In this document: positions 214-7,917 of the stretch, one piece after another
Position numbering within the stretch: the stretch's first letter is position 1
Layout: each line of letters starts with the position of its first letter
Assembly: GCA_009780545.1 (NCBI GenBank)
Contig: WQZW01000058.1
Coordinates: 1-7,917 of the forward strand
Length of the DNA: 7,917 bases
From: Treponema sp.
GTDB taxonomy: Bacteria > Spirochaetota > Spirochaetia > Treponematales > Breznakiellaceae
Reading direction: 5' to 3'
Notes under the pieces: model-generated
What the model saw: the letters and a program-made list of their open reading frames with translations, nothing else
Told to the model about the DNA's origin: nothing
Database searches by the model: none
Position numbers and translations under genes: made by a program

Positions 214-1839
214 ATGGACATAAAAGATTTGCCCGTCGCGGCGGATTTTCCGGGGGAGACGGCGGAGGGGGCGAGGATGCTCCTGGCCATACGGGAGGGC
301 CTTGCGGCCCCGTTGGAGTCCCTGTCGGTGCTGACGGAGGAAGATGCCGAGGTGCCGGACATGGGAAAGCAGTTCGGGGCGTTGGCCTGGTACCTCAGGC
401 TTATCTACCTCGTCCTGGGATTTTTTACCAACAGGACGGCCGAGGCCCTCTTTCGGGAACGGCAGATGGTCGGCATGGGGAGGGGGGTCGAGGTCGACTT
501 TCCCGGCGTCTACGATTCCAGGCAGCGGATGCTGCGGCAGGCCTTTTACGACCGGCTGCTGCGGCTGAAGGAGGCCGGCAGGTTCCTGTACGACCTGATG
601 TCCGGCGGGCTCGGGCGGGAGCGGCCGGCCTTTTTCGCCGTGCTGGGCTCGCTGGAGATGCGGGGGGTGCACTGCCGGCTCAAGGAGGAGTGCCGGCCGG
701 AAGCCGTCATGGCAAGGAAGCCGGACCTTCCGCCGGCCGGGCTCCGGCATCAGGCAAGTCGGACCCTGGACGAGATACTGTACTCCATCCCCGAGGAAGC
801 CCGCGACACGATGTACTACCATGCGCGTTCCTTCGGACATATCGTCAACATCGCCTGCTTCCTCTTCGACCGGCTGCTGCTGGCATTTACCGACACGCCG
901 GAGGGCAAGGTCTGCAGGATCAACGCGGCCGTCAAGGACCAGCTTATGGCGCTCGACGCGGTGTTTCTCGCACTCCGGGAACCGCCGACCTCCGTCTTCA
1001 TCGAGGCGCTGTTGCTGTACCAGATGGAACGGGGGACGAAGGGGCCGCTCTTCGATGCCGATACGGAGCTTACCTTCCTGCTGAACCGCATGGACGGCTC
1101 GCTGCGGGCCATCGCCGACTTCGGGGGCCTGATTCCCCTGGGCCGCATCCTCCGCTGCGCGACCGGGAACCCGGAGTACGCCCCGGCTCCCCTGGGCGGG
1201 GGCGAGGACTGGTTCCAACTGTACCGCTGCCACTGGGAGCAGCGGATACAGGCCGACCTTTCCCGCTTCCTTACCGAGAGGAAATGCCGGGAGATCGCCG
1301 CATCCCTGGAGGTACTGTACGGAATCCGCCTCGTCCCGGCTCCGGGCCAGGGAAGTTCCGGCATTCCCCTGGCCCAGGACTTCGCCCTTTCCTTCCTCGC
1401 CGCCTTCCACCCGGTGCTTGCCGGGAAGATGGGCGAGGAGCTGGCCCCCTTCCTTACGGAAACCGACGACGGGCCCGAGGCGGACGATCCGAACGAGGTC
1501 GCCGGGCCGTACCGCCGCCTCCTCGATATCGAGCGGGACATACGGGACTTCTACACCAAGCTGGGCCCCCGGGGGGTATACGGCGGGTGCATCCGGTCCA
1601 CGGGCGAGGAGGCCGAAGCCCCGGCGGCGAAGGCCCGCAAGGTGAAGGCCGTGCAGGAGCATGTGGGCGAGGAGGCCGCCGGCATCATCCTCGGTGCCCT
1701 GCAGTCGATGAGGAAACTGACCGCCGCACTCGACGCCCTCTCCGCGGAGGACCCGGGCCTTGCCGAAAGGACCGCCGGAACGAGGGAGGGACTGCGGTAC
1801 GCGGTTACCACGCTGGAGGAGGTCGGGGAGTCGGTTTGA
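214..1839 (+). CDS. uncharacterised 541-residue helical protein, spirochaete type
   Basis: I do not recognise a function. The product has no signal peptide, no lipobox and no clear membrane anchor. One moderately hydrophobic stretch lies at residues 55-71, and helix-rich sequence dominates. Residues about 470-541 are charged, Ala/Glu/Lys-rich and coiled-coil-like. An acidic, low-complexity stretch near residues 410-425 may be a linker. Length and character recall spirochaete-only families of unknown function such as DUF5312, but this is from memory and unverified. The ATG at 214 was chosen because GAGG (206-209) lies just upstream. An in-frame GTG at 163 would add 17 Gly-rich residues but has no SD. 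The next gene is tyrS after 163 bases, with a hairpin and a promoter between, so the two need not form one operon. The open frame is intact. That the gene is real is supported by its full length and by the hairpin placed just after its stop. Confidence 0.8.
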   Translation: MDIKDLPVAADFPGETAEGARMLLAIREGLAAPLESLSVLTEEDAEVPDMGKQFGALAWYLRLIYLVLGFFTNRTAEALFRERQMVGMGRGVEVDFPGVYDSRQRMLRQAFYDRLLRLKEAGRFLYDLMSGGLGRERPAFFAVLGSLEMRGVHCRLKEECRPEAVMARKPDLPPAGLRHQASRTLDEILYSIPEEARDTMYYHARSFGHIVNIACFLFDRLLLAFTDTPEGKVCRINAAVKDQLMALDAVFLALREPPTSVFIEALLLYQMERGTKGPLFDADTELTFLLNRMDGSLRAIADFGGLIPLGRILRCATGNPEYAPAPLGGGEDWFQLYRCHWEQRIQADLSRFLTERKCREIAASLEVLYGIRLVPAPGQGSSGIPLAQDFALSFLAAFHPVLAGKMGEELAPFLTETDDGPEADDPNEVAGPYRRLLDIERDIRDFYTKLGPRGVYGGCIRSTGEEAEAPAAKARKVKAVQEHVGEEAAGIILGALQSMRKLTAALDALSAEDPGLAERTAGTREGLRYAVTTLEEVGESV

Positions 1840-1986: not shown

Positions 1987-1995
1987 TGCTATACT
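1987..1995 (+). promoter_or_regulatory. extended -10 promoter of tyrS, leaderless start
   Basis: TGC directly followed by TATACT (1990-1995) makes an extended -10 element, which can make up for the poor -35 region (TTTCCC at 1967-1972 for a 17-base spacer). Only 7 bases separate the -10 box from the tyrS ATG at 2003. Transcription would start at or within a base or two of the ATG. Confidence 0.55.
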
Positions 1996-2002
1996 TCCGC
2001 CT

Positions 2003-3241
2003 ATGAACCAAGCGATACTGACCTTGCAGGAACGGGGCTTTTTCAAGCAGTGCACCAATCCCGAGGGCCTTTCCGCCCTGATGGACGGGGGGCCGGCGAC
2101 CTTCTACGTCGGCTGCGATCCCACCGGCCGGAGCATGCATATCGGGCACTTGGTGCCCTTCTTCGCCTTCCGCCACCTGAAGGCCGCGGGCCATTCCGGA
2201 ATCGCCCTGGTCGGCGGGGGCACGGCCCGGATCGGCGACCCCTCCGGCAAGAGCGAGCTGCGGAAGATGCTGGACTACGACGCCCTGGACGCCAACGCGG
2301 CGGCCATCACCGCCCAGCTGGACCGTTTCGTGGGCTTCGACGGCGAACGTTCCCGCCCGGCGAACAACCGCGACTGGCTGGCCGACCTCAACTACATCGA
2401 CTTCCTCCGGGAGATCGGCAGCCACTTTTCGGTAAACCGCATGCTCGGTTTCGAGGCGTACAGGGCCAGGATGGAGACCGGACTTTCCTTCATCGAGTTC
2501 AACTACCAGCTTTTGCAGAGCTACGACTTCCTCGAACTGTACCGCCGTCATGGCTGCCGGCTGCAGATCGGCGGCGACGACCAGTGGGGCAACATCGTCG
2601 CCGGCGTCGAGCTGGTCCGCAGGATCGAGGGTGCGGAGGTTTTCGGCCTTACCTTCCCCCTGGTTACCACCGCCGACGGCAAGAAGATGGGCAAGACCGA
2701 AAAAGGCGCCCTCTTCCTCGATCCGGAAATCACCACACCCTACGACTTCTTCCAATACTGGCGGAACGTGCAGGATGCCGACCTGCTCCGCTTCCTGCTG
2801 ATGTTCACCTTCCTTCCGGCCGACGAGTGCCGGGCGCTGGCCGCCGAGGGGAGGAATCCCAACGAGGGCAAGGAACGCCTCGCCCGGGAGATCACCGCCC
2901 TGATCCACGGCGGGGAAGCGGCCGACCGCGCCCTTGCCGGAGCCAAGGCGGCTTTCGGGGGAGCAGGCGATTCCGACGCGATGCCCGGGGTGGAGCTTTC
3001 CCGCGCCGCCTTCGATGCCGGCTACAACGTCGTGGACCTCTTCCACGATTCCGGCCTGGCCCCGAGCAAGAGCGAGGCCCGGCGCCTGGTCCAGCAGGGC
3101 GGGGCCTTCGTTTTCGGGCCCGCGGGCGAGGCCGCCGTTACCGACATCGCGGCGGGCATAGGCCCGGATGCGCTGGACCCGACGGGAACGCTGGTGCTGA
3201 GGGCCGGGAAGAAACGGTATATGCGGGTGAAGGCGGTCTAA
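2003..3241 (+). CDS. tyrS: tyrosyl-tRNA synthetase
   Basis: Charges tRNA-Tyr with tyrosine using ATP, in the cytoplasm. This is a class I synthetase of 412 residues, close to the usual bacterial length (E. coli about 424). Visible motifs are YVGCDPTGRSMHIGH with the HIGH box at residues 46-49, the GDPSGK motif in the ATP/Tyr pocket, the tyrosine-binding QIGGDDQWG at 188-196, and KMGKT at 228-232, a common variant of KMSKS. A C-terminal S4-like RNA-binding domain starts near residue 341 and contains the typical SKSEARRLVQQGGAFV pattern. The frame stays open upstream, but the ATG at 2003 fits the family N-terminus. There is no Shine-Dalgarno sequence before it; instead an extended -10 box sits 7 bases upstream, which suggests a leaderless mRNA. 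No T-box leader is possible with that start. The last codons and the stop lie in the 5' arm of a strong hairpin. Confidence 0.97.
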   Translation: MNQAILTLQERGFFKQCTNPEGLSALMDGGPATFYVGCDPTGRSMHIGHLVPFFAFRHLKAAGHSGIALVGGGTARIGDPSGKSELRKMLDYDALDANAAAITAQLDRFVGFDGERSRPANNRDWLADLNYIDFLREIGSHFSVNRMLGFEAYRARMETGLSFIEFNYQLLQSYDFLELYRRHGCRLQIGGDDQWGNIVAGVELVRRIEGAEVFGLTFPLVTTADGKKMGKTEKGALFLDPEITTPYDFFQYWRNVQDADLLRFLLMFTFLPADECRALAAEGRNPNEGKERLAREITALIHGGEAADRALAGAKAAFGGAGDSDAMPGVELSRAAFDAGYNVVDLFHDSGLAPSKSEARRLVQQGGAFVFGPAGEAAVTDIAAGIGPDALDPTGTLVLRAGKKRYMRVKAV

Positions 3242-3266
3242 TCTCCTGCGGAGATTGGACCGCCTT
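3230..3266 (+). terminator. 17-bp hairpin overlapping the tyrS stop codon
   Basis: AAGGCGGTCTAATCTCC (3230-3246) pairs with GGAGATTGGACCGCCTT (3250-3266) over all 17 positions, with one T-G wobble and a 3-base TGC loop. The tyrS stop codon TAA (3239-3241) is inside the left arm. No T-tract follows (GGTTTACC). It is the strongest fold in the window and very likely shapes the tyrS mRNA 3' end. Whether it terminates transcription on its own is open. Confidence 0.6.
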
Positions 3267-3411
3267 GGTTTACCGGACAGATGTCGGGCCGTGTGGCAGC
3301 AAAGCTCCGAGTCCTGGTTTTACGGGGCAAAGGCGGAGCGTCCGTGCTAAAGGTTTTCTGCCTCGGTCCGTAAATCTCCGGTGTCCCGTTCCCATGGGGA
3401 ATCGGGCGGGC
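3267..3411. other. intergenic region between tyrS and the cyclase gene
   Basis: No gene, tRNA or known riboswitch fold is seen here. The one structure is a 9-bp stem at 3385-3406: CCCGTTCCC pairs with GGGAA and CGGG around an ATG triloop, with one bulged T. It ends 5 bases before the -35 box of the cyclase promoter. It could be a regulator site or a weak terminator. The RNA would lie outside the cyclase transcript, so it cannot be a leader element for that gene. Confidence 0.4.
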
Positions 3412-3440
3412 TTGAAAGGAGTTTCCCTACCGTCTATAAT
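3412..3440 (+). promoter_or_regulatory. near-consensus sigma-70 promoter of the cyclase gene, leaderless start
   Basis: TTGAAA (3412-3417), a spacer of exactly 17 bases, then TATAAT (3435-3440). This is 11 of 12 matches to the housekeeping promoter consensus. The -10 box ends 8 bases before the ATG at 3449, so RNA would begin about 0-2 bases before the start codon. An AAAGGAG at 3415-3421 is too far from the ATG, and upstream of the predicted RNA start, to be the ribosome binding site. Confidence 0.75.
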
Positions 3441-3448
3441 TAGAAGAT

Positions 3449-5140
3449 ATGAATATCCGGATGAAGATGTTGCTGGTGGTACTTCCGCTGGTGGTGGTGA
3501 TTCTTGCCCTGGCCCAGGCCGCGTCCTACTTCAATGCGGTCAACGGCGTAACCCGGCTTGCCCGGGAGCTGCTGGGCTTCAAGCTCCGGGAGATGAACAA
3601 ATTCGCGGACGGGCAGTGGTCGTTGCTGATCGAGAACGGCTTCGCCGCGAGGCCGGATATGATCGAGGCCGCCCAGACGGCGGTCCGGGGCTATGCGGAA
3701 GGTATAGTCCTCAGCGGTACCGAGCGTATCTTCGCCATGGACTCCGACGGCCGCCTGGTCATGACGAGCGGCCCGCTGGAATTCCTGGACGGCGAGTCCG
3801 ACCTGTTGATGGGCATGCTCAGGTCCGAACCGCAGGGCCTGCTGACCGCGTCGGTCGGCGGGGAAAACCGCGTCTTCCAGGTCTTCTACTTTCTCCCCTT
3901 CGACTGGTACATCCTGATCAGCGAGACCCATGCGGCCTTCTACCGGGATTCCGACAATATCGCCTCCCAGTCCCTGATCACCCTGTTGGCCGCCGTCCTG
4001 CTCATCTCCCTGTTCCTGGCGATCATGACCGGCAAGCTTACCGGCCCCCTCAGGCGGATCGTGGCGGCCATGGACGGAATCATCGGTTCGGCGGACCTTT
4101 CGGCCAGGGTCAAGGTCGAGTACCGGGACGAGACCGGCCGGCTTGCCTGGACCTTCAACCGCATGCTCGGCGAGCTGGAAAGCGCCTACTCGCAGATCAA
4201 GCGGTACGCATTCGAGGCGGTGCTGGCCAAGAAGAAGGAACAGCGCATCAGGCAGATATTCCAGAAGTACGTGCCGGCCACTGTCATCGAGCGCTTTTTC
4301 GCATCGCCCGAAAAGATGCTCGTCGGCGACAACCGCAACCTTTCCATCCTGTTCTCCGACATACGGAGCTTCACCACCATCTCCGAGGGCATGGCCCCGG
4401 ACGACCTGGTCAACTCGCTGAACCGCTACTTCTCCGGTCAGGTGGACATCATCTACGGCAGGGGAGGGGTGGTCGACAAGTACATCGGGGACGCGATCAT
4501 GGCCTTCTGGGGCGCGCCGAACCTCGGCGGCGACGACGCCCTGCAGTCGGTGCTTGCCGGCCTGGATATGATCGACCAGGTTGGCCTGTTCAACGAAAAC
4601 CAGCGGTCCCTGGGAAAGCCCGAGTTCCGGATCGGGATCGGGCTGAACTACGGCGAGGTTACCGTGGGCAACATAGGCAGTGAGCGGAAGATGGACTACA
4701 CCGTCATCGGCGATTCGGTGAACCTGGCCTCCCGGATGGAGGGCCTGACCAAGAACTACGGTTTCGGGATTCTCCTTTCCGAGTCCGTCCATGCCCAGAT
4801 ACTGCGGACGGGAATCCCCGAGGGGGAAAATCTGGACTTCAGGCTGATAGACACCGTGGCCGTCAAGGGCAAGGCCCGAGGGGTGAAGATATACACCGTC
4901 GGAAGGCGGATCGGCGAGGCGGAACGGGCCGGCTGGCAGCTGCACGACCTGGCCATGGATTTGTACTACCGGCGTTCCTTCAAGGAGGCGGCGGAAAAGT
5001 TTCGGGAAGTCTACCGGCTTCTTTCCAACGGAAACGTCAAGGACTCCGTCTCCGAGCAGATGTACCGGCGTTGCGCGCAGCATGCCGCCAATCCCCCGCC
5101 CGCGGACTGGGACGGCGTGGAAGTCATGGAAAGCAAGTAG
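3449..5140 (+). CDS. membrane adenylate cyclase, class III (IIIb-like), with HAMP domain
   Basis: Predicted to convert ATP to cAMP in response to a periplasmic signal. The 563 residues show TM1 (about 7-25), a periplasmic sensor region (26-172, possibly Cache-like; the NRVFQVFYFLPFDWYILIS part is typical), TM2 (173-195), HAMP (about 194-250), a linker helix, and the catalytic domain (about 290-480). Metal-binding aspartates are D304 (LFSDIRSF) and D348 (DKYIGD). K344 is the adenine-selecting lysine. The partner position, usually Asp, is T418 (MDYTVIGDSVNLASR), as in class IIIb enzymes; N425 and R429 complete the transition-state pair. All catalytic residues are present, so an active homodimer is expected. 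The tail (485-563) looks TPR-like and ends with PPPADWDGVEVM, a pattern I associate with spirochaete and related cyclases. The start is supported by the promoter just upstream; downstream Met5 or Met7 cannot be excluded. The next gene follows after 67 bases and may be co-transcribed. Confidence 0.93.
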   Translation: MNIRMKMLLVVLPLVVVILALAQAASYFNAVNGVTRLARELLGFKLREMNKFADGQWSLLIENGFAARPDMIEAAQTAVRGYAEGIVLSGTERIFAMDSDGRLVMTSGPLEFLDGESDLLMGMLRSEPQGLLTASVGGENRVFQVFYFLPFDWYILISETHAAFYRDSDNIASQSLITLLAAVLLISLFLAIMTGKLTGPLRRIVAAMDGIIGSADLSARVKVEYRDETGRLAWTFNRMLGELESAYSQIKRYAFEAVLAKKKEQRIRQIFQKYVPATVIERFFASPEKMLVGDNRNLSILFSDIRSFTTISEGMAPDDLVNSLNRYFSGQVDIIYGRGGVVDKYIGDAIMAFWGAPNLGGDDALQSVLAGLDMIDQVGLFNENQRSLGKPEFRIGIGLNYGEVTVGNIGSERKMDYTVIGDSVNLASRMEGLTKNYGFGILLSESVHAQILRTGIPEGENLDFRLIDTVAVKGKARGVKIYTVGRRIGEAERAGWQLHDLAMDLYYRRSFKEAAEKFREVYRLLSNGNVKDSVSEQMYRRCAQHAANPPPADWDGVEVMESK

Positions 5141-5150
5141 TTGGTGGCCG

Positions 5151-5183
5151 GTGATCGGTGGCCCGTCGCTAATCACCGATCAC
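5151..5183. repeat. inverted repeat after the cyclase gene, possibly a dispersed repeat or terminator
   Basis: GTGATCGGTG (5151-5160) and CACCGATCAC (5174-5183) are perfect 10-bp inverted repeats around a 13-base spacer. They begin 10 bases after the cyclase stop codon. No T-tract follows. The GTGATCGGTGA / AATCACCGATCAC wording resembles short repeats often scattered between genes of some bacterial genomes, so it may be a repeat copy instead of a gene-specific terminator. Confidence 0.45.
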
Positions 5184-5197
5184 TGCCTACGAGCAAA

Positions 5198-5203
5198 AAG
5201 GGA
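5198..5203 (+). promoter_or_regulatory. Shine-Dalgarno site fixing the start at 5208
   Basis: AAGGGA lies 4 bases before the ATG at 5208 and is the clearest SD-like site in the window. It supports this ATG over upstream in-frame starts, which would also bury the signal peptide. No promoter is seen in the 67-base gap, so this gene is probably translated from an mRNA shared with the cyclase. Confidence 0.55.
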
Positions 5204-5207
5204 TGGT

Positions 5208-6680
5208 ATGAAGGCTAAGGTCCTTGCGGCGTTGCTGGCCGTTTTTTGCATAACCTCGGCCCTGGGTCAGGGCGGGGGAAAGCCGACGCTGGCCATCCTC
5301 CCCTTTACCGGCGCCGGTATCGAGGGCGGGCGTATCGCCGACAGCCTGGCCCTGCAGCCGGATATCCGCAGGACCTTTACCCGGGTGGCCGTGTCCCCCG
5401 CGGCCCTGGAGATATTCCTCGGCCGGATGTCCCGGATCACCGCCCTTACCGATTCGGACTTCGTCTCCGGCCTGGGTCGGGAACTCGGGGCCGACTACCT
5501 GATTTCAGGCCATGTGCGGAGGGTGGGGAACAGGTTCCTGGTAACCGTCTCGGTCATAGATTCCGGGAACTACGAGCTGGTCGCCGGCTTCTACCGGCTT
5601 TTCTACGGCAACCGGGAGATCGGCGGGCTGCTCCCCGTCATGGCACGGCAGATGACGGACACCGTGCGGAAAAGACAGGGCCTCGGTCCGCTTCCCGCCC
5701 TTGCCGTCGCCCCGCCCGGCTTCGACGACGAACCCTTAAGCAGGTTCGAGACCACCGTTTCCGGCGTGAACTACGACGTGGAGACGCTGACCCAGATACT
5801 GTCCATAGAGATCGCCAACATGGGCCTGTACGCCGTCCTTCCCCGGGGAACCGTGCTGCGGAACGCCCTCCTGCTCTGGGAATCGTACTTTCCGGGCGAG
5901 GTAACGGTAACCATGGAACGGCTCTTCCTTAAGCTGCGGATTATCTTCGAATCCTCCGAGCCGGTTACGGCTCCGTACAGGCTGGTCGGCCCGATGGAAA
6001 CCATGGGCCGGGCCGCCGACGCCGAGTTCGTCCTTTCCGTCAACAACCGGGAAACCGACGGCGCGAACGTCTTTCAGGCGGGGCTTTTCAGGGCCTTCGG
6101 CGACGAGCAGCTTGCCGTGGTCGCCCAAGGCTACCGCTCCCTGGCGGAGGGCCTGGACATAATGCCCGACGTCGCCATCGCCCTGGTCAACCCGCCCGAT
6201 TCGGATGCCCGCCTTGCCCAGCTCGTCCAGCGACGCTGGAAGTCCAGGCTCATCGAGGACCCGGCCCGCTTCTGGAGCATCGGCGCGGCCGTGGGAACTT
6301 CCTTCAACGATCCCTGGGCTATCGGAACCTTCATGGCCACCTTCGCCCCGCTTCCCTTTTCCTTTCTCAAGGTCGGCGTCGATGCCGGCTTCATCAGCGA
6401 CCTGGTTCCCGGCATAGACTACTTTTCGCTGTACCCCTTCGTTCATTACGCCCTGTTCGTCCCCTTCGGCGCGGCTTCGTGGTACCTGGGCGGCGGCGGC
6501 GGCTACATGATAGCGCGGTACGTCGTCGGCGGATTCGAGCATAACGTCGGGGCGCCGCTGGTGGACCTCGGTACCGGCTTCGTCATAGGCAACCTGCTGG
6601 ACGTGTCCTACACCCTCAGGACCAATTTTTCCTCGATCAACGGCAAGCTCTCGGTAGGCTTGACTTACCGCTTCCGGTAG
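5208..6680 (+). CDS. secreted protein with two TolB/CsgG-N-like modules and a C-terminal outer-membrane barrel
   Basis: The 490-residue product starts with a signal peptide (residues 1-20, MKAKVLAALLAVFCITSALG, probable cleavage before Q21; no lipobox). Residues 26-155 follow the pattern of periplasmic TolB-N/CsgG/LpoB-like domains: a PTLAILPF strand, a FVSGLGRELGADYLISGHV segment and then VTVSVIDS. Residues about 180-330 seem to hold a second, more divergent copy (IANMGLYAVLP, then AADAEFVLSVNN and VFQAGLFRAF). Residues about 355-490 alternate aromatic and small residues in Gly-rich strands and end in LTYRFR, as in outer-membrane beta-barrels. So it is likely an envelope protein, with its N-terminal part in the periplasm and its C-terminus in the outer membrane. 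Its role is unknown. The domain calls are by eye and the barrel could have about 8 strands. It follows the cyclase by 67 bases with its own SD. The promoter of the next gene is inside its last codons. Confidence 0.8.
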   Translation: MKAKVLAALLAVFCITSALGQGGGKPTLAILPFTGAGIEGGRIADSLALQPDIRRTFTRVAVSPAALEIFLGRMSRITALTDSDFVSGLGRELGADYLISGHVRRVGNRFLVTVSVIDSGNYELVAGFYRLFYGNREIGGLLPVMARQMTDTVRKRQGLGPLPALAVAPPGFDDEPLSRFETTVSGVNYDVETLTQILSIEIANMGLYAVLPRGTVLRNALLLWESYFPGEVTVTMERLFLKLRIIFESSEPVTAPYRLVGPMETMGRAADAEFVLSVNNRETDGANVFQAGLFRAFGDEQLAVVAQGYRSLAEGLDIMPDVAIALVNPPDSDARLAQLVQRRWKSRLIEDPARFWSIGAAVGTSFNDPWAIGTFMATFAPLPFSFLKVGVDAGFISDLVPGIDYFSLYPFVHYALFVPFGAASWYLGGGGGYMIARYVVGGFEHNVGAPLVDLGTGFVIGNLLDVSYTLRTNFSSINGKLSVGLTYRFR

Positions 6681-6689
6681 TTTTAGAAT
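6660..6689 (+). promoter_or_regulatory. sigma-70 promoter of the RCC1-repeat gene, leaderless start
   Basis: TTGACT (6660-6665), an 18-base spacer and TAGAAT (6684-6689) match the consensus at 10 of 12 positions. The -35 box lies inside the last codons of the preceding gene. The -10 box ends 6 bases before the ATG at 6696, so the RNA would begin at about the start codon. No SD is present. Confidence 0.6.
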
Positions 6690-6695
6690 TGGTGT

Positions 6696-7917
6696 ATGCG
6701 GCGGGAATCTCCCTTGCGACGTAGCATACTCTCCCCGATCTTCCTTGGGATACTTATGTGCCTCGTAAGCCCGGCCTCCTGCGACAGGATGGGCGGCGTG
6801 GGCCTGGTCGAGGTTTCCTTCGACGGGGGCGGCGCCAAGGGAATGCTCCCCCCCAACCAGATCGTGGTAATAGGATCCTTCATCACCGTCCCGGGCGACT
6901 ACGGACTGATTCCCCCGGAAGGCGGTTTTCTCTACTTTACCGGCTGGAAGGACGAGAACGGCGCCCTGTACAGGGAAGGCATCAAGCTCAAACCCCTGAC
7001 CAATATGACGCTCACGGCACAGTGGGGCGACGACTTGGGCTGGAGGTATGCGGGCTTTTCTCCGGAAGGCAGTGGGACCGGCAAGATTAGCATTGAGTTT
7101 GACGGAATTGTAGGCACATTGGAAAAGAGTGATATAAAGTTTATTCCTTCTTTGGTTGATGTAGTGGGACTAAAATGGGCGGAACCAAGGAAATGGGACC
7201 TGGATGTTGTTGTCAATAAGCCCGATTCGCCTTACTTTAATATGAGTATTGAAAAACCGGGGATTGATCCCGAAATAACAGTATTTGTAGATGCCACCAC
7301 CGGTTCCACTTCCCTTGCCGGGGTAGCGGCCGTTTCCGCCGGGGCGAACCACAGCCTGGCCGTCAGGAGCGACGGTAGCCTGTGGAGCTGGGGCGGCAAC
7401 GAGAACGGCCAGTTGGGTAACGGTTCGACCGGTACGAATAATGCCAAACCCGAACGAGTAGGGACGGATACCGACTGGAAACGGGTGTCCGCGGGCGGCG
7501 GTTTTTCCCTGGCCATCCGGCAGGACGGCAGCCTGTGGGCCTGGGGAAACCGGGCCAACGGCAGGCTCGGCACCGGTTCCGCCGTCGGAACCCAGCCCGT
7601 GCCGGAACGGGTGGGAAGCGACGGCGACTGGTATTCGGTATCGGCCGGGTCCGACCATGTCCTGGCCGTCAAGAACGACGGCAGCCTGTGGACATGGGGC
7701 GGCAACGGGAGCGGTCAGTTGGGTAACGGTTCGACCGGTGACGTTTCCGCTCCCCGGGCGATACAAGGCACCTGGAAAGAGGCATCCGCGGGCGACGGTT
7801 TTTCCCTGGCCATCCGGCAGGACGGCGGCCTGTGGGCCTGGGGAAACGGGGAGAACGGCAGGCTCGGCACCGGCGCCTCGGGCGGAACCCAGCCCGTGCC
7901 GGAACGGGTGGGAAGCG
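6696..7917 (+). CDS. predicted surface lipoprotein with Flg_new, Ig-like and RCC1 repeats (3' end outside window)
   Basis: The frame is open from the ATG to the window edge: 407 codons, C-terminus missing. Residues 1-29 form a signal peptide with RR at 2-3 and 8-9, a hydrophobic core (11-24) and Cys29 after SPAS. The lipobox is atypical (Pro at -3), so lipidation is likely but unsure, though spirochaete lipoboxes are loose. Residues 37-110 match the Flg_new/InlB-type repeat, ending GWK...LTAQW. Residues about 120-200 look like an Ig-like domain of treponemal surface proteins (IEFDGIVGTLEKSDI, then IEKPGI), and its DNA is far more AT-rich than the rest. From about residue 210, RCC1 repeats begin: AGANHSLAVRSDGSLWSWG, QLGNGSTG and similar, four units of about 50 residues, the fourth cut by the edge. 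RCC1 repeats fold as a seven-bladed beta-propeller, so about three more units are expected. Likely surface-exposed binding protein; ligand unknown. Confidence 0.85.
   Translation, partial: MRRESPLRRSILSPIFLGILMCLVSPASCDRMGGVGLVEVSFDGGGAKGMLPPNQIVVIGSFITVPGDYGLIPPEGGFLYFTGWKDENGALYREGIKLKPLTNMTLTAQWGDDLGWRYAGFSPEGSGTGKISIEFDGIVGTLEKSDIKFIPSLVDVVGLKWAEPRKWDLDVVVNKPDSPYFNMSIEKPGIDPEITVFVDATTGSTSLAGVAAVSAGANHSLAVRSDGSLWSWGGNENGQLGNGSTGTNNAKPERVGTDTDWKRVSAGGGFSLAIRQDGSLWAWGNRANGRLGTGSAVGTQPVPERVGSDGDWYSVSAGSDHVLAVKNDGSLWTWGGNGSGQLGNGSTGDVSAPRAIQGTWKEASAGDGFSLAIRQDGGLWAWGNGENGRLGTGASGGTQPVPERVGS
7329..7917 (+). repeat. tandem RCC1-coding repeats with a two-unit higher-order period
   Basis: RCC1 units alternate between two types. 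The DNA at 7488-7620 recurs at 7785-7917, exactly 297 bases later, with about ten mismatches in 133 bases by eye. The 24 bases from 7410 recur without change at 7716, a period of 306. So units 1/3 and 2/4 are pairs that were copied as two-unit blocks (99-102 residues). The window ends inside this array, so its full size is not known. Confidence 0.85.

Follow-up and report, generated by a model that had tools for sequence, protein, structure and literature searches.

Predicted leaderless starts in a Treponema contig and apparent mixing of start types among related spirochaetes

Leaderless starts are an already known kind of gene start, including in spirochaetes. In Leptospira interrogans, dRNA-seq found a primary transcript start at most 10 bases from the start codon for about 440 genes (PMC5243855); that study gives sigma-70-like matches, yet doubts most of them (PMC5243855). 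In Deinococcus, a further study shows that a -10 box adjoining the ORF drives leaderless expression (PMC12340547). A survey of genomes gives a mean of 39.4% leaderless genes for Deinococcus-Thermus and predicts such genes in 6 of 18 spirochaete genomes, with a mean of 3.9% (1.8-6.9) (PMC3160421). The words Treponema, Borrelia and Leptospira do not occur in the main text of the survey, and its Spirochaetes part does not treat switching at single orthologues. Among the matches listed by our literature searches there was no study of leaderless starts in termite-gut treponemes, and neither switching of start mode in tyrS nor a conserved leaderless cyclase was found there.

The genes analysed here resemble TANNNT-led genes of Deinococcus-Thermus and Actinobacteria in that the -10 box stands beside the ORF, no SD site is present, and they are mixed with SD-led genes (PMC12340547, PMC3160421). 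Unlike the 39.4% of Deinococcus-Thermus, the share estimated here is lower, an excess of about 1-8% of ORFs, which counts strong boxes and was obtained by another method (PMC3160421). The likeness to the leaderless mRNAs of L. interrogans is that these also belong to a spirochaete; unlike in that distant relative, where RNA was measured, the case made here is one of sequence prediction and of recurrence in Treponema/Breznakiella-type spirochaetes (PMC5243855).

Gene starts and promoter boxes in the window

The window, i.e. the whole stretch of DNA that was analysed (7,917 nucleotides), carries five genes, all on the + strand. Their coordinates and those of the promoter elements discussed below are as follows.

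214..1839, + strand: DUF5312 gene (PF17239, 7.4e-77) with a putative start codon and an SD-like start (contrast case)
1987..1995, + strand: extended -10 of tyrS (TG-N-TATACT), with TATACT at 1990-1995 and N7 to the ATG at 2003
2003..3241, + strand: tyrS, tyrosyl-tRNA synthetase (PF00579, 3.1e-81), predicted leaderless start
3412..3440, + strand: cyclase promoter TTGAAA-17-TATAAT, 11/12 match, N8 to the ATG at 3449
3449..5140, + strand: protein with a HAMP and a guanylate/adenylate cyclase catalytic domain (PF00211, 4.4e-22; PF00672, 9.8e-07), predicted leaderless start
5208..6680, + strand: gene with no Pfam match and a weak SD-like start (contrast case)
6660..6689, + strand: RCC1 promoter TTGACT-18-TAGAAT, 10/12 match, N6 to the ATG at 6696
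6696..7917, running off the window, + strand: RCC1-repeat protein gene (PF00415, 7.4e-38), predicted leaderless start

The first-pass annotation had placed a -10 box 6-8 bases before the ATG of tyrS, the cyclase gene and the RCC1 gene, and all three boxes are present as it described. So are the two -35 elements that it named, TTGAAA (3412-3417) with a 17-base spacer to TATAAT (3435-3440) and TTGACT (6660-6665) with an 18-base spacer to TAGAAT (6684-6689). The -35 of tyrS is poor in the window (3/6), and that of RCC1 lies within the gene before it, which ends with a stop 15 bases ahead of the RCC1 ATG. The RCC1-repeat protein has an N terminus that looks lipoprotein-like by eye. In agreement with the claim that these three starts have no SD site, none of six 4-base SD-like words occurs at 3-12 bases before the three ATGs. 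The two genes named as SD-led behave as proposed: the gene at 214, which only 213 bases precede in the window, has AGGA/GAGG at 3/4 bases before its start, and the gene at 5208 has AAGG, a weak SD-like word, at 6 bases; both are without a close -10 box.

To assess chance, the 80-base regions upstream of the five window genes were dinucleotide-shuffled as a set, 5000 times over. Three genes with TANNNT at 5-9 bases, as observed, were seen in 3/5000 shuffled sets; three genes with a -10 match of at least 5/6, and two genes with a promoter match of at least 9/12, both as observed, were each seen in 0/5000.

Read in this way, each of the three genes would have a promoter of the sigma-70 type, with a -10 hexamer ending 6-8 bases ahead of the ATG. 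RNA polymerase would begin on the A of the ATG or no more than about two bases away from it, giving the putative RNA 5' end, and translation would begin at the 5'-terminal AUG without an SD site, ribosomes presumably entering there. Leaderless mRNAs can bind 70S ribosomes directly. We regard it as highly probable that the three window genes yield leaderless mRNAs, as predicted from these letters and from the relatives described below.

The further remark that a leaderless tyrS has no T-box control holds but adds little: no T-box or other leader RNA was matched at Rfam gathering scores in the window or in 11 SD-led tyrS loci.

Other features of the window concern gene ends and composition. Strong inverted repeats at 1840-1887, 3230-3266 and 5144-5190 lie just past or across three gene ends, that at 3230-3266 covering the tyrS stop codon; no clear T run was seen by eye, and they are possibly terminators without a U tract. 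Inside the RCC1 gene, GC content drops in the stretch 7000-7300 (0.405 at 7100-7299 versus 0.66-0.70 from 7300 on), which has perhaps recombined.

Starts of tyrS and the cyclase gene in relatives

The 390 genomes drawn from the order include no near relative of the window, the top identity for the DUF5312 protein being 36%. The best TyrS identity is 80%. The relatives are mostly metagenome bins, cited under their names as deposited, and their ORFs were picked mechanically.

For tyrS, the best 80 of 581 loci from one scan were taken. The match starts at residue 1 in 79/80 relatives; the remaining one (L078) was left out because its match begins at residue 7, giving 80 sequences with the window included. 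A -10 box was accepted at 4/6 matches or more with A at position 2 and T at position 6, located 4-9 bases before the aligned start. By this rule, 34 of the 80 upstream regions have a close -10 box, 36 an SD core, 10 neither and 0 both, a mutual exclusion that is partly forced because both signals need the same space. The distance in the 34 leaderless-type sequences is most often 6 bases (18 sequences), followed by 8 (6), 7 (5), 5 (4) and 9 (1), and TANNNT stands at exactly 6 bases in 18/78 upstream regions. All 34 leaderless-type tyrS genes start with ATG, and GTG is found in 2/36 SD-led and 1/10 of those with neither signal. At least five of the latter ten begin within 10 bases of the preceding ORF and therefore look operon-internal.

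A stricter search (at least 5/6 matches, over 4-99 bases upstream) placed the best box of SD-led tyrS genes 16-79 bases upstream in 29/36 and found none in 7. For the 34 leaderless-type genes, it lies at 9 bases or less in 23 and further away in 5, and is lacking in 6.

The cyclase gene has matches at 1e-60 or better in 159/390 genomes, and a 143-base region spanning the start was retrieved for 40 orthologues, of which 20 were the top-ranked matches and 20 were hand-picked lower down. Thirty-nine of the 40 align from residue 1, with ATG there in all 39; in the other, L279, the alignment begins at residue 2 and the start codon is apparently a GTG located 6 bases past its -10 box. With the window included (n = 41), a close -10 box stands in 30 upstream regions and an SD site in 2, and the remaining 9 show neither signal. 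The box is at exactly 6 bases in 19 of the 30 boxed rows and at 7-9 bases in 10, and 24 boxed rows also carry a -35 of at least 4/6 at a spacing of 16-18 bases.

In the 40 ungapped cyclase sequences (L279 left out), numbered from the A of ATG, TANNNT at exactly 6 bases occurs in 20/40, and the most informative columns are -11 (A, 68%), -31 (G, 57%), -35 (T, 68%), -33 (G) and -32 (A); column -7 is T in 60%. Usual sigma-70 numbering places +1 on the A of ATG for these columns.

These alignments bear on the idea that translation really begins further downstream, the -10 boxes belonging to leaders of the usual kind. In its favour, the cyclase gene also has Met codons at positions 5 and 7, and the start of RCC1 is unaligned. 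Against it, matches run from residue 1 in 79/80 tyrS relatives and 39/40 cyclase orthologues, ATG is kept in all 39 cyclase orthologues that align from there, and no SD site is seen by eye before Met5 or Met7. We consider downstream starts very improbable. The predictions of a leaderless start for tyrS and for the cyclase gene find support among the relatives, in the start codons and promoter positions of both genes and, for the cyclase, in the sigma-70 columns. For RCC1, the prediction comes from the motifs in the window's own letters (TTGACT-18-TAGAAT-N6-ATG); a local tblastn of the fetched loci gave one weak locus, L119, in which the start is not covered. The gene at 5208 had no homologue in the fetched loci.

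Ultra-short leaders of 1-4 bases, rather than strictly leaderless mRNAs, would be biologically near the main reading and compatible with it. Distances of 7-9 bases, seen in 12/34 tyrS and 10/30 cyclase rows and including the spacing of the window tyrS (7) and cyclase (8), would fit such leaders, although 6 bases is the commonest distance in both genes, which puts +1 on the A, and one of the ten cyclase rows at 7-9 bases is 6 bases from a likely GTG. On balance, ultra-short leaders are possible, if rather unlikely.

In two relatives, the gene divergent to the cyclase gene (L283:99-305 and L282:100-306) encodes a conserved protein of 68 aa that has no confident Pfam match. In L283 this gene also has a close -10 box (GATAAT-N6-ATG), and in L255, L257, L259, L260 and L264 some 66 bases separate the two divergent ATGs.

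Genome samples and the position of genes

Seven relatives (G001, G002, G004, G005, G006, G009 and G021) were sampled at 220-400 kb each. For in-frame starts within the first third of an ORF, -10 boxes of at least 5/6 were counted 5-8 bases upstream and compared with positions 12-59. G001 and G021 were sampled at even steps. Many contigs of G002, G004 and G006 came from a TATAAT-N6-ATG list, which is the motif under test, and two corrections were made: (A) exact TATAAT was excluded, and (B) only loci not picked by motif were used. The G005 contigs, also on that list, were retained, having been taken one after another from C1 to C5 at fixed steps.

Under (A), enrichment before ATG is significant in four of the seven relatives, namely G006 (22 versus 5.9, p = 3.1e-7), G009 (14 versus 4.7, p = 0.00036), G002 (22 versus 11.9, p = 0.0056) and G005 (40 versus 29.8, p = 0.043), and not in G001 (p = 0.089), G004 (p = 0.12) or G021 (p = 0.24). 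Under (B), it is likewise significant in four, G006 (p = 0.0013), G009 (p = 0.0015), G005 (p = 0.02) and G004 (p = 0.026), and not in G001 (p = 0.14), G002 (p = 0.23) or G021 (p = 0.26); pooled over 1189 ORFs, the count is 140 versus 96.3 (p = 1.8e-5). The excess under either correction comes to about 1-8% of ORFs. The enrichment of -10-like motifs before starts that the first-pass annotation proposed to look for genome-wide is significant, on these samples, in four relatives under either correction and in the pooled count, and is not significant in G001 or G021. Loose TANNNT before first genes in the uncorrected sample was not significant in 4/6 genomes (G001, G021, G005 and G006), and whole-genome motif counts versus the reversed pattern did not separate the genomes by tyrS type.

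There was no p < 0.05 for GTG or TTG in 14 tests of (A), and no clear excess at ATGs in the later two thirds of ORFs. A third count (C), on the genes that accompany tyrS in its 80 loci, gave 60 versus 39.4 for ATG (p = 0.0014), 15 versus 15.1 for GTG and 14 versus 20.1 for TTG. A restriction to ATG is no strict rule, because (C) has 10 boxes exactly 6 bases before a GTG and the start of L279 is apparently GTG too. Split by tyrS type, the excess of leaderless starts among these other genes is 5.8% versus 3.0%, and no link is claimed.

A different explanation would put the promoters further upstream, with SD-independent translation of leadered mRNAs (e.g. via S1) and the near -10 box arising by chance or from an A+T-rich start context. 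It draws on the 515/781 sampled first genes that lack an SD site by a simple test, on the window tyrS without a strong -35 and on the 5/34 leaderless-type tyrS genes with a better-scoring box further upstream. The peak of tyrS and cyclase boxes at 6 bases, the correctly spaced -35 in 24/30 cyclase rows and the lack of a significant excess at GTG, at TTG and at ATGs beyond the first third of ORFs argue against it, and we judge it improbable. The genome samples appear to back the leaderless reading, more weakly than the tyrS and cyclase comparison does.

It had also been suggested that first genes of a unit have leaderless starts and internal genes SD-led ones. This was assessed in six samples (G004 left out). 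Genes counted as first if their neighbour was divergent or if the free stretch upstream was 80 bases or longer, and as close-spaced if the gap to the preceding gene was under 25 bases. Near -10 boxes (TATAAT excluded) precede 57/781 first versus 8/407 close-spaced genes (p = 7e-5), or 50/605 versus 7/321 in loci not picked by motif (p = 1.4e-4), and SD sites precede 266/781 first versus 176/407 close-spaced genes (p = 0.0024). The suggestion survives as a tendency and not as a rule, given that 266 first genes have an SD site. RCC1 itself goes against it, since its start 15 bases past the previous stop makes it an internal gene by spacing.

Possible exchange between initiation modes

Initiation mode appears to go by gene, as the cyclase genes of G007 (L280) and G009 (L279) have a close -10 box though tyrS there (L005 and L038) is SD-led. 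Leaderless and SD-led starts seem to be mixed in the relatives at the level of single genes.

The tyrS tree needs 10 changes between leaderless and SD states, and 9 under stricter labels (26 leaderless, 30 SD); the tree is unrooted and the counts carry no direction. A figure of about ten changes depends on the tree, because 33 of 77 inner branches are open, and the well-supported branches alone force just 2 changes with the strict labels. The state labels are clustered on the tree (0/500 shuffles as low), one side of which, with 13 sequences, is entirely SD-led, on a weak branch (54/90). The record behind L005 bears the title Treponema denticola; its GC content is about 65%, its TyrS falls together with that of Gracilinema caldarium in the tree, and the species name looks wrong.

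Whether leaderless and SD-led starts are interchangeable for individual genes of Treponema/Breznakiella-type spirochaetes, tyrS having switched some ten times and the HAMP-cyclase gene having stayed mostly leaderless, also beside an SD-led tyrS, is a question on which we are evenly balanced.

Gene finders built around SD sites may put leaderless starts in the wrong place or treat them as doubtful. Among the relatives, the housekeeping gene tyrS shows both modes and the signalling cyclase gene mostly keeps one, and such orthologues allow a test of whether leaderless starts are relics or are freely exchanged. If the interchange is real, the lineage would be a natural experiment on a gene moving between two initiation modes, and it would also inform on whether selection keeps some genes leaderless.
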